Below, piece by piece: positions 9,301 through 15,300 of a DNA stretch of 41,461 bases. The stretch spans positions 1 to 41,461 of the forward strand of contig NZ_JADWYU010000120.1 in assembly GCF_016786325.1 (NCBI RefSeq). Direction: 5' to 3'. The notes beneath the pieces are model-generated. The model ran no database searches and was not told where the DNA came from. It worked only from the letters and a program-made list of their open reading frames with translations. A program made the position numbers and the translations under genes. This stretch comes from Frankia nepalensis (GTDB lineage: Bacteria; Actinomycetota; Actinomycetes; Frankiales; Frankiaceae). Numbering within the stretch: position 1 is the first letter of the stretch; each line of letters opens with the position of its first letter.

Positions 9301-12300
9301 GACGTGTGGACGATGTTCCACTCGGCGTCGTTCGACTTCTCCGTCTGGGAGTTGTGGGGACCGCTGCTGCGCGGCGGCCGGCTCGTCGTCGTCGACCAGG
9401 ACGTCGCCCGGTCACCCGAGCAGTTCCTCGAGTTGCTGCGCCGGGAGTCGGTGACCGTGCTCAACCAGACGCCGTCGGCGTTCACCCAGCTGATGGCGGC
9501 CGAGGCGGATCTCGGCGGCGACCCGTCCACGCTCGCCCTGCGTTACGTGATCTTTGGTGGCGAGGCGCTCGATCTTTCACGGCTCGCCACCTGGTACGCC
9601 AGGCACCCGGACGACGCCCCGGCGCTGGTCAACATGTACGGCATCACCGAGACGACGGTGCACGTGACCTACGCGCGTCTCGACCGGGTGAGCGCCGCGG
9701 CGGCGAAGGGCAGCTCGATCGGCGTGCCCATTCCCGGCCTGCGGGCGCGGATCCTCGACCAGCACCTCACCCCGGTCCCGCCGGGGGTGGCCGGTGAGCT
9801 GTATGTGAGCGGCGATCAGCTAGCCCGCGGCTACCTGGGCCGGCCGGGCCTGACGGCGACCCGGTTCGTCGCCTGCCCCGACGGCGCGCCGGGGGAGCGG
9901 ATGTACCGCACCGGGGACCTGGCGCGGCAGGCGCCGGACGGCGGGCTGGAGTACCTGGGCCGGGCCGACGACCAGGTCAAGATCCGCGGCTTCCGGGTGG
10001 AGCTCGGCGAGATCGAGAGCGTGCTCGCCGAGCACCCGGCTGTCCAGACCGCGGTGGTGCTCGCCCGCCAGGACCGGCCGGGTCAGCGGCGGCTGGTCGG
10101 ATACGTCGTGCCGCGCCCCGGCTCGGCGGACGACGCGGCCGACCTGGGCGCGACGCTGCGCCGGCACGCCGCCGCCGCGCTGCCGGAGTTCATGGTCCCG
10201 GCCGCCGTCGTCGTGCTCGACACGCTGCCGCTGACCCGCAACGGCAAGCTCGACCGGGCAAGCCTGCCCGCGCCCGACCTGGCAGCGCCCGTCACCGCCA
10301 CCGCCGGTCGCACCGCGGCCGAGCGGACGCTGTGCGCGGTGTTCGCCGACGTCCTCGGCGTCGAACGGGTCGGCGTCGACGACGACTTCTTCTCCCTCGG
10401 CGGCGACAGCATCGTCGCGATCCAGCTCGTCAACCGTGCCCGGCGCGAGCGGATCACCTTCACCCCTCGCGAGGTGTTCCAGCACCGCACCCCGGCCGCG
10501 CTCGCGGCCCTGGCGGCCGCCGTCCAGAACGGCTCCGTCCAGGACGGCTCCGTCCAGGACGGTTCCGGCGGCGTCAGCCCCGCGATCCCCGGCGCGGCCG
10601 GCGCCGCCGCTACCGCCACCGCCGGGGACGCCGCCGCCGGCGCGCCGGCCGAGCCGGGCCACGACCCGGACGGGGTCGGCGTCCTCACCCCGCTGCCGGT
10701 CGTCGCCCGGCTCGCCGAGTGGGGCGGCCCGATCCGGCGGCTCAACCAGGCGTTCCTCGTCCGGGTGCCGGCCGGTGCCGACCTGGCGGCGCTGGGTGCC
10801 GCGCTGGATGCCGTGCTGGACCGGCACGACGGCCTGCGCGCGCGGCTGCTGCGCCCGGCGCCCGCGCTGTGGCTGCTGCGGACAGCCGCGCCCGGCACGG
10901 TGGCCGTCGGCGGGCTGCTGACCCGCGTCGACATCGCGGGCCTGGCCGCGCCCGAGGTGCGCGCCGTCGTCGCCGCCGAGTCGGCGGCGGCCGCCGAGGC
11001 GCTCGACCCGGACGCGGGGGCGATGCTGCGCGCGGTGTGGCTCGACGCCGGCCCGGCCGAGCCCGGCCGGCTCCTGCTGGTCGCGCACCACCTGGTCGTC
11101 GACGGCGTGTCATGGCGGATCCTGCTCGCCGACCTCGGCGAGGCCTTCGCGGCGGCGCGCGCCGGCCAGCCGCCGTGGCTGGCCCCGGTCCCCACCTCGC
11201 TGCGCACGTTCGCCCGGGTCTTCGCGGAGCGCGCCCAGGACCCGGACAGGCTCGCCGAGCTCGCGCACTGGACCGCGACGCTCACCCCCGGCGCCGGGCT
11301 CACCGATCCCACGGGTCTCGCGGATCCCGCGGGTCCCCTTGAGGGCACTGAGCTCACCGGCGGAACGGACGGAGCCGGCCACCCCATCGACGCCACCGGC
11401 GGCGCCGGCCGAGCGCTGGCGGGCCGAGGCGGGGCGGCGGGCCGGTTCGCGGACACCGCCCGGCACGTCGTCGAGGTACCGCCAGCGGTCACCGTCCCGC
11501 TGCTGACGGTGCCGGCGAGTGGGGTAGCCGCCGCCGGCACCGAGATAACCGACGTGCTCCTGGCCGCCCTGCGGGTGGCGGTCGCGCGCTGGCGGCACGA
11601 GCGCGGCTGGGACGGCTCGGCCGACCTGCTCGTCGACGTGGAGCGGCACGGCCGCGCGGAGATCGCCCCCGGGCTGGACCTGTCCCGCGCCGTCGGCTGG
11701 TTCACCAGCATCGTCCCGGTCCGCCTGCCGGCCGCCGCCGGGCTGGACGCGGCCGAGACGTTGCGGCTGGTGACCGAGCGGTGGCGGGCGACGCCGGACG
11801 GCGGCATCGGCTACGGCATGCTGCGCCACGCCAACCCGCTCGCCGCCGCGACGCTGGCCGCCGCGGCCCGGCCGGAGGTGCTGTTCAACTACCTGGGCCG
11901 GTTCGACGCCGACCCGGCGGCGGACTGGGCGCTCGCCCCGGAGAGCGACGCGCTCGCCGCGCACCCTGACCCCGACCTCGCCGTCGGCCACCCGCTGACC
12001 TGCGACGCCGCCTGCGTCCAGGGCGCGGACGGCCCGACGCTGCGGGCGACGTTCACCTACCTGTCGACCGTGCTGCCCGCCGCCGACGCGGCCCGGATCG
12101 CCGACGGCTGGGTGTCCGCGCTGCGCGAGCTCGCCGCGCTCGCGCCCGCCGGCCGGCGGGCTGGCCAGGCCACGCGCCAGGCCGAGGACCAGGCAGGAGG
12201 CCCCGCCGAGGGGCCGGCAGAGGGACGGATCGACTCGGCCGGGCTCTCCCCGGCCGACGTCGAGCGGATCAGGCGGGCGAGCCCCGCGCCGGTCGAACAG

Positions 12301-15300
12301 ATCTGGCCGCTGTCGCCGCTGCAGGAGGGCCTGCTGTTCCACTCGGCCCTCGACCGGTCCGGCGACGCGTACACGGCGCAGTTCAGCCTCGACTTCGCCC
12401 ACCGGCTCGACGGCGACCGGCTGCGGCGCGCCTGCGAGCAGTTCATGCGGCGCAACCCGGTCCTGCGGGCCGGCTTCGTCAGCGACGGCCTGCCCGCGCC
12501 GGCGCAGGTCATCCTCACCGGACTGCCGGCGCCGCTGGCCGAGGTCGACCTGTCCGGGCTCGCCGAGCCCGAGCGCGCCGCGCGCGCGGCCCAGCTGGCC
12601 GATCGCGACCGGACGACGCCGTTCGACGTCACCCGGCCGCCGCTGTTCCGGCTCCTCCTGCTGCACCTCGGCGACGGCCGCGACCGGCTGGTGATCAACC
12701 GCCAGGTGCTGCTCTGGGACGGCTGGTCCGGCGCGCTGGTGATCGACCAGCTGCTGGGGCTCTACGCGGCCGACCCGGGCGGCGATCCCGGCGGTGACGG
12801 CGAGACCGGGCAGGCCGCCGGGCCGCCCGCCCCGGCGGCCTCCTACAGGGACTTCCTGGACTGGCTCGCCCGCCAGGACACCGCCGTGGCCACGGCGGCC
12901 TGGCGCGCGGCCCTGGACGGCCTGGACGGGCCGACGCTCGTGGTGCCCGCCGCCCGTGGGCTCGCGCCGGTCGAACCCGGGCGGATCACCGTCGAGCTGC
13001 CCGAACGCACGACCGCCGCGACGCGGGCGCTCGCCCGTGAGGCCGGTCTCACGATCAACTCCGTCTTCAACGCGGCGCTCGCGCTGGTGCTGGCGAGCGC
13101 GACCGGTGGCGACGACGTCGTGTTCGGCACCACCGTGGCCGGCCGGCCGACCGAGCTGCCCGGCATCGACGACGTCATCGGCCTGTTCCTGAACACGGTT
13201 CCCGCCCGGGTCCGGCTGGACCCGGCGGAGACCGTCGCGGACCTGCTGCGCCGCGTCCAGGCCGAGCGCGTCGCGCTGATGGACCACGAGTACCTCGGCC
13301 TGGGCGAGATCCAGCGCGCCGCCGGGCATCCGGAGCTGTTCGACACCCTGTACGTGCTGCAGAACTTCATCGACGAGGTGGCGACGGACGCCACCAGCGC
13401 CCGCTACGGCATCACCGGCGGCACCAGCGTCGACCACACCCACTACCCGCTGACCTTCGTGCTGTTCCCCGGCGCGCGGATCACCGTCCGGCTGGAATAC
13501 CGCCCCGACGTCGTCGACGCCGCGCTGGCCGACGCGCTCGTGCGCCGGTTCGTCGCACTGCTCGACACGCTGGCCGCCGACCCGGCCGCTCCGGTCGGCT
13601 CGGTCCAGGTGCTGCTGCCGGCCGAGCGCGCGGCGCTGGCCGCCGCGCACGAGCCGCCGCCGTCCGGCGACGAGACGCCCGCTCGCCCGGGCGGCACGGA
13701 CCGGGAGGCCGCCGACGAGACCATCGCCGACCTGCTGGCCGCCCAGGCGGCGCGCACCCCCGACGCCACCGCCCTCGTGCTGAGTCATGGGTGGCCACGT
13801 ACGGGCCCGGGCTCCCGGCGGGTCAGCTACGCCGAGCTCGACGGCCGGGTGAACCGGCTGGCCCGGCTGCTGCGCGCGCACGGCGCCGGGCCGGAGCGGG
13901 TCGTCGCGCTCGCGCTCGGCCGGTCGCTCGACATGGTCGCCGCGCTGTTCGCCGTGCTGCGGGCCGGCGCCGCCTACCTGCCGCTCGAGCTGGACCACCC
14001 CGCCCCGCGGCTGAACGCGATGATCGCCGACGCGGGTGCCTCCCTGGTGCTCGCCACCAGGGCCACCGCCGGCTACCTCGGTGCCGTCGACGCCCCCACT
14101 GTCGCTGCCCTCACTGTCGATGCCTCCGCCACCGGCGCCCCCGCCCTCGATGGCCCGGCACACGCCCCCGACGCCGATGCCCCCGACGCCGGCGGACCGG
14201 GCTGGCTGGTGCTCGACGAGCCGGCGACCGCCGAGCGGCTGGCGGCCCAGGACGCCGGCGAGCTCACCGCCGCCGAGCTGGGCGGCTTCGCGCGCGGCCG
14301 CGCCGGCCGGCTCGACCATCCCGCGTACGTGATCTACACCTCCGGCTCCACCGGCCGCCCGAAGGGCGTCGTCACCCCCTACCGGGGCCTGACCAACATG
14401 CAGCTCAACCACCAGAAGGAGATCTTCGACCCGACGGTGGCCCTGGCCCGGGGTTCCTGCCGGATCGGCGAAGCCGATCTGGGAGGTCTGGGGCGGCGGC
14501 TGCGGATCGCGCACACGGTCTCGTTCGCCTTCGACATGTCCTGGGAGGAGCTGCTCTGGCTGGTCGAGGGCCACGAGGTGCACATCTGCGACGAGAACCT
14601 GCGGCGCGACGGCGAGGCGCTGGTCGCCTACTGCCACGAGCACCGGGTGGACGTCGTCAACGTCACCCCGACCTACGCCCAGCACCTGCTGGAGCTTGGC
14701 CTGCTCGCGGACGGGCCCACCGGCCCGGGTGAACCGGCCGGCGCCACCCGCGCCATCGGCGCCGCCGGCGGTGCCGCCGCCGGTGCCGGGCACCGGCCGT
14801 GCCTGGTGATGCTGGGCGGCGAGGCCGTCTCGGACACGTTGTGGAACCGGCTGCGCGACACCACGGGGACGGCGGGCTACAACCTCTACGGCCCGACCGA
14901 GTACACGATCAACACTCTCGGCGCCGGTACCGCCGACAGCGCGACGCCCACCGTGGGCCGGCCGATCCGCGACACCCGGGCCTACGTCCTGGACCGCTGG
15001 CTGCGCCCCGTCCCGGACGGGGTACCCGGCGAGCTCTACGTCGCGGGCGCCGGCCTGGCCCGCGGCTACCTCGGCCAGCCGGGCCTGACCGCGGCCCGGT
15101 TCGTCGCGGACCCGTCGGTGCCGGGCGGCCGGATGTACCGCACCGGCGACCTGGTGCGGCGCCGAGCCGGCGAGGCGAACCTGGACTTCCTCGGCCGCAC
15201 CGACGAGCAGGTGAAGATCCGGGGCCACCGGGTCGAGCTCGGGGAGATCACTTCGGCGCTCGAGCGGCACCCCGGGGTCGCCCAGGCCGCGGTGGTCGCC

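Follow-up and report, generated by a model that had tools for sequence, protein, structure and literature searches.

A condensation domain without motif histidines in a Frankia nepalensis peptide synthetase and its relatives in hydroxyornithine modules

The 41,461-nucleotide stretch of the Frankia nepalensis genome considered here (contig NZ_JADWYU010000120.1; hereafter the window) encodes a five-module nonribosomal peptide synthetase (NRPS), in whose third condensation (C) domain, C3, Gln-Val stands in place of the His-His pair of the HHxxxDG motif, while the Asp-Gly pair, the partner Arg, the DCL-type N-terminus and the fold have been retained. Sequence comparisons place C3 in a distinct actinobacterial group of C domains, designated here C*, in which the second His of the motif is absent and whose modules carry an adenylation (A) domain of the hydroxyornithine type. 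We consider it probable (roughly 0.6) that the C* domains, including C3, are catalytically active and that they acylate hydroxyornithine on its side-chain N-OH, yielding a backbone hydroxamate, in a reaction for which no His base would be needed.

The initial annotation had read the motif of C3 as QVLLWDG with both His lost, at Gln3116-Val3117, a numbering that starts from the ATG at amino acid 75 (nt 3358). Counted from the GTG start, as throughout this text, the same residues are Gln3190 (nt 12703-12705) and Val3191 (nt 12706-12708), followed by Asp3195 (nt 12718-12720), and the frame, the translation and the alignment with SrfA-C all agree with that reading. The HMMER alignment of C3 with the solved condensation domain of SrfA-C is ungapped around the motif, so that Gln3190 and Val3191 occupy the two His positions, and the reading frame is intact, with A, methyltransferase (MT) and thiolation (T) domains following C3 in the same frame. 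The accompanying statement that DGWS, the DCL-type N-terminus and the rest of the fold are kept was borne out as well: SPLQEG, DGWS, Arg3337 (the Arg of AGRP) and Asn3353 (the Asn of LNT) are all present in C3, the family PF00668 matches a 2500-aa piece of the protein with an E-value of 4.4e-169 and its best stretch (554-1001) corresponds to C3, and the AlphaFold model of C3 (pLDDT 86.8) matches the C domain of SrfA-C (8f7h) with a Z-score of 39.4 and a root-mean-square deviation of 2.7 for 421 aligned positions. With its DCL-type N-terminus and its position directly after the epimerization (E) domain E1, C3 resembles a DCL domain, but its NRQVLLWDG departs from the canonical HHxxxDG, because of which it has been placed outside the canonical condensation domains, as what its sequence suggests to be a variant of them. 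It also lacks the first Asp of the DxxxxD motif that characterizes heterocyclization (Cy) domains. Its DCL-type N-terminus has a Gly at the site of R2577 of FscG (fuscachelin), according to an alignment made by eye. C3 does share the features of C*, namely no His at the catalytic position, a Trp before DGWS, a YTIN-type A domain next to it and a position inside the C* clade.

A search of 58 genomes with C3, its own genome among them, revealed 17 orthologues (68-74% identity) in the other 57, all 17 with NRQVL[LV]WDGWSG, which answers affirmatively the question of the initial annotation whether NRQxxLWDGWS is conserved among homologues. A broader scan of named genomes, from which the best 80 loci ranked by likeness to C3 were taken, revealed motifs that start with NRQV in Frankiaceae and Pseudonocardia xinjiangensis, NRQF or NREF in Rhodococcus, NRHL or SHHL in Amycolatopsis, and GRHL, SHHL or THHL in Streptomyces, in addition to others. 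In the nearest His-bearing relatives of C3 the motif takes the form HHxxxxDG, with HH one residue earlier and the length unchanged, so the catalytic position is without His there too. The complementary scans with the A domain of the same module, A3, covered 199, 393 and 301 partly overlapping genomes and yielded 76 loci that were read; the upstream C domain was unreadable in three of them (L186, L201, L202) and C*-like in 69 of the remaining 73, with 42 of these 69 being His-less, i.e. without either motif His. Removal of near-identical rows reduced the 182 readable domains to 164, among which 137 unique ones are C*-like. Their catalytic position (-4) is occupied by Leu (84), Phe (31), Val (21) or Thr (1) and never by His, and the preceding position (-5) by His (89), Gln (37), Glu (8) or Arg (3), which leaves 48 of the 137 His-less; one terminal C domain (VMHY) is excluded from these figures, and with it the 137 and 89 would become 138 and 90. 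In the structure model of a His-bearing C* domain (L080) the motif strand likewise ends at -5. The genome of F. nepalensis itself encodes a second NRPS (contig C368, L049, 14497-15810) in which a YTIN-type A domain is preceded by a C* domain that does carry His (SHHFLLWDGWS), a natural control beside C3. A different variant has been observed in L204 and L233 (FEHILLDGWS before a YTIN-type A domain), where the first motif His is replaced by Glu and the second is retained.

In a tree of 132 rows calculated with the motif columns removed (quick LG+G4, SH-aLRT support only), C* forms a clade of 104 rows (SH-aLRT 99), inside which 35 His-less rows are found in a sub-clade of 39 (SH-aLRT 97); the other four members of this sub-clade retain His (the coelichelin-type SHHL and SYHL, plus TYHL and TSHF). 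Just outside C* are the canonical L171 and L168, whose NHTLLWDGWS retains the first His and lacks the second, both on long branches flagged by the tool. The absence of every motif His requires two changes on the tree, and we read the second His as having been lost before the first, with the finer order unsure.

The module context of C* is strict. Among the 333 C domains of 82 NRPSs (those of the 80 loci and of the window, plus the other NRPS of the same genome) there are 82 C* domains, and the next A domain carries YGPTEYTIN in 81 cases and was not read in one. The same NRPSs contain 225 HH domains, of which 34 have an unread next A domain and 12 have none; for the other 179 the next A domain could be read and is never of the YTIN type. 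In 26 of the C*-containing NRPSs, that of contig C368 (L049-L050) among them, a terminal C domain is not followed by an A domain and reads [HVQT]YxxxDE, with Tyr at the place of the catalytic His; none of these 26 NRPSs has an MT in its C* module. One locus, L175 (G442), has YTIN-type A domains in two consecutive modules, preceded by NHTLLWDGWS in one and by an ordinary HHIAGDEWS in the next.

The residues joined by C3 were judged from the A-domain codes, which we take to mean Gly for A1, Thr for A2 and hydroxyornithine for A3; together with the module layout they support the earlier placement of C3 between D-Thr and N-methyl-hydroxyornithine, which it should link. We propose that C3 would add free N5-hydroxyornithine to the growing siderophore, with the acceptor attacking via its side-chain hydroxylamine (delta-N-OH) and not via the alpha-amine, so that D-Thr would be joined as a backbone hydroxamate, serving as an iron ligand, and the alpha-nitrogen would only be methylated. 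At neutral pH a hydroxylamine (pKa near 6) is mostly in its unprotonated form, and it is a strong nucleophile, hence a His base would not be needed, and the proton could be transferred by water, by Gln, Glu or Arg at -5 or, less surely, by His3434. Such an attack would fit the absence of the second His from all C* domains and the subsequent variation at the first, as well as the association with hydroxyornithine modules, in which a methyltransferase is often present. It would also agree with the Tyr-type terminal C domains, whose role may be to form a diketopiperazine by way of a free alpha-amine. The same direction is indicated by the C3 domain of FscG, an ordinary alpha-amine-joining domain that is crippled by a His to Gln substitution. 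Further points in favour are the retention of the His-less motif in all 17 orthologues, the strong conservation of the whole domain, its intact fold, the production of coelichelin- and scabichelin-type compounds by synthetases with C*, and the ornithine monooxygenase encoded in the genome. The product of the window would then possess three bidentate ligand groups: an aryl heterocycle, a backbone hydroxamate and a terminal hydroxyornithine. Of the possibilities raised in the initial annotation, the C* clade and its strict module context favour two, a different mechanism and a hydroxamate-related task, short of proof. More tentatively, and possibly rather than probably, C* could be a natural family specialised in backbone hydroxamates, whose ancestor gave up the catalytic His and one sub-group of which (Frankiaceae, Pseudonocardia, Rhodococcus and relatives) was left with no motif His and acquired another His at the acceptor pocket, which would amount to a second catalytic design on the C fold.

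Several observations weigh against acylation of the side chain by C*. The best 80 loci were selected by their likeness to C3, and C* and its A domain may have been co-inherited, in which case their association is not independent proof. Four of the 73 readable domains of the A3-based set have His at the catalytic place (L171 with QHHILTDG, L203 with HHHATD, L204 and L233 with EHILLDG), and YTIN-type A domains follow catalytic-His C domains in L171/L174, L203, L204, L233 and the second hydroxyornithine module of L175; the A domain alone therefore does not require C*, and it is the manner of joining the hydroxyornithine residue that might require it. The genome gives four Formyl_trans_N hits, so a formyltransferase may exist and an alpha-linked formyl-hydroxyornithine could be made, even if the numbers of formyl- and acetyltransferase hits (four and two) are uninformative on the linkage. 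Finally, the argument is built on sequences and on the parallel with coelichelin, erythrochelin and scabichelin, in which the delta-nitrogen carries the chain.

Among the other explanations, a sequencing or assembly error at 12690-12720, which the initial annotation had named together with homologues bearing HHxxxDG as what would overturn its reading, is already refuted and its probability is practically nil: 17 other genomes, which span three genus codes, and P. xinjiangensis (L071) have the same letters, and no orthologue has HHxxxDG. It is improbable that C3 is catalytically dead, with its module skipped or another C domain serving in trans. Both motif His are gone, and a His to Gln substitution nearly kills FscG C3 (PMC8097023), as such a loss of function would have it; however, in ten aligned NRPSs (that of the window plus nine) C3 has a mean pairwise identity of 0.773, compared to 0.743 for C4, 0.742 for C5, 0.700 for E1, 0.672 for C2 and 0.666 for C1, so that it ranks first in conservation among C1-C5 and E1 (E2 being outside the comparison), and the A3 core (0.819) and T3 (0.813) are also well conserved. 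In the same set HH is retained by C1, C2, E1, C4 and C5 in all ten NRPSs and by E2 in nine, with the aligned sequence of the tenth (G006) missing at that place. Moreover, scans of the stretches beside the NRPS in G029, G001 and G002 revealed no stand-alone C domain (open reading frames (ORFs) of >100 aa, C-domain profiles, E up to 1e-5); the C-like matches there correspond to the NRPS end and to Cy-A-T proteins, with DxxxxD in two of three, and in the genome of F. nepalensis the contig ends on the upstream side. These results oppose the idea of a decaying relic and speak against the structural relic helped in trans that had been suggested earlier. Quite improbable, too, is a role of C3 as a docking platform for a tailoring enzyme, as in X or interface domains. 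The X domain of glycopeptide NRPSs is an extra, P450-recruiting domain with an altered motif, and its C fold (4tx2, Z 32.7) is among the fold matches of C3, as are ordinary C domains; C3, unlike X or interface domains, is not an extra C-fold domain but the sole C domain of its module, between E1 and A3, and if it only docked, nothing would catalyse the bond.

It is rather unlikely that C3, although active, uses the N-methylated alpha-amine to make a normal peptide bond, with a catalytic His that has been relocated to amino acid 3434 (local position 394) by the acceptor pocket. His is found at this position in 62/62 His-less domains, 0/94 other non-canonical and 0/26 canonical ones (182 readable rows), or in 48/48 His-less domains and 0/90 others after de-duplication, and the position aligns, by eye and via C4 and FscG C3, with T2944 of FscG, between the acceptor-pocket residues P2941 and E2950. 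On the other hand, the tree implies one supported (two total) independent change to His394, and positions 43 and 150 segregate equally fully, for which reasons we regard His394 as a lead and not as a result; besides, the C* domains with His at -5 have neither a catalytic-position His nor His394. A role of His3434 in proton transfer may be inferred from these alignments, but less surely. Direct-coupling analysis was also tried for placing residue 394 and was dropped, as near-neighbour and gap artefacts dominated.

The features of the window that bear on C3 are collected in Table 1. The ORF upstream of the NRPS includes an aryl-AMP ligase-like domain (DHB_AMP_lig, 689 bits, below the curated cut-off of 723.55), which would fit a siderophore with an aryl cap that resembles frankobactin. 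An ornithine monooxygenase is encoded in the same genome. In A4 the stretch equivalent to FDMSWEEL of A3 reads FDASWEPL. Module 5 is apparently without an A domain in six of the ten aligned NRPSs (G006, G005, G022, G001, G008, G002; loci L037-L048), as the T5 motif occurs ~570-600 aa past T4 with no A8 motif between them, while A5 is present in the window, G026, G020 and G029. In G001, the one genome in which this was examined, a frame of 1774 codons (L237, 907-6228, minus strand) adjoins the orthologous NRPS and encodes a chorismate-binding (salicylate-synthase-like) domain and Cy-A-T. The NRPS of the window terminates in an E domain (24178-25788, plus strand) and no thioesterase was seen within it, so that release must be carried out by another protein.

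Table 1. Features of the window related to C3 and its synthetase
Feature	Position	Strand	Basis or remark
Whole NRPS, C1-A1-T1-C2-A2-T2-E1-C3-A3(MT)-T3-C4-A4-T4-C5-A5-T5-E2	3136..25788	+	7550 codons from GTG
A2 (Thr-type code DFWNIGMVH) and T2, donor side of C3	8728..10515	+	code letters
E1, epimerization domain, HHLVVDG intact	10669..12090	+	
C3, condensation domain without motif His	12283..13605 (aa 3050-3490; limits approximate)	+	Pfam Condensation, AlphaFold, fold match
Degenerate HHxxxDG motif of C3, NRQVLLWDGWS region, Q3190 and V3191 at the His sites	12697..12729	+	
His3434 (local 394) of C3	13435..13437	+	shared by every His-less domain read, absent from the rest
A3 core, hydroxyornithine-type (FDMSWEEL ... 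YGPTEYTIN)	13723..15375	+	
Methyltransferase domain inside A3	15388..16155	+	Pfam Methyltransf_12/11/25
T3 (LGGHS), acceptor carrier for C3	16798..16995	+	
Upstream ORF, truncated by the contig end: A-domain part, T, aryl-AMP ligase-like domain	3..3107	+	
Siderophore-type periplasmic binding protein	25801..26979	+	Pfam Peripla_BP_2

If it is true that C* marks the formation of side-chain hydroxamates, genome miners could predict backbone hydroxamates from sequence, and engineers would gain a domain that acylates hydroxylamines. Rules that call C domains dead when HH is missing would be wrong for C*. The 137 unique natural domains without the second His, and with His, Gln, Glu or Arg beside its position, constitute a natural test in the debate on His as the base.

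The C-domain classes named in the consulted part of a published classification include no hydroxamate-specific or His-less bacterial elongation class, the fungal LCL-A class having SHxxxD (PMC10212144), and in the Creative Commons-licensed PubMed Central literature searched we recognised no paper on a C domain of either kind. The portion of PMC6024995 that describes albisporachelin contains no statement of the linkage sought. FscG C3 (PDB 7KVW, 7KW0) shares the condensation fold with C3 (Z 33.8-33.9), but differs from it by an ordinary HHxxxDE with an essential second His (PMC8097023). This His is located 3.6 Å from the acceptor amine and its change to Gln leaves ~1% activity; calculations indicated that the bond forms before deprotonation, water has been suggested as the alternate base in some domains, and whether the second His acts as a base is still debated (PMC8097023). 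Close parallels are found in known siderophore synthetases. The coelichelin synthetase is described as comprising three modules, for formyl-hydroxyornithine, Thr and hydroxyornithine, with E domains in the first two (PMC9854754), and two of the loci, L172 and L173, match this CchH-like layout, their identity with CchH being based on layout only. Their third C domain is C*: as in C3, it has a C* motif (SYHL/SHHL-LLWDGWS), follows an E domain, precedes a YTIN-type A domain and belongs to the same 39-row sub-clade, but in contrast to C3 it retains His at -5, lacks His394 and has no methyltransferase in its module. Streptomyces scabiei 87.22 has been reported to make scabichelin from an NRPS cluster (PMC8914351), and the scabichelin-type NRPS of this strain (L137, assigned from the organism and the layout rather than from a gene name) resembles that of the window in having a C* motif, GRHLILWDGWS, and a YTIN-type A domain with an MT, but differs in retaining His at -5 and in having no E domain directly upstream; a C* domain is also present in L131, a scabichelin-type synthetase of Streptomyces turgidiscabies. 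Since coelichelin- and scabichelin-type compounds are produced, the C domains that lack the catalytic His must be functional in these systems, unless they are helped unseen.

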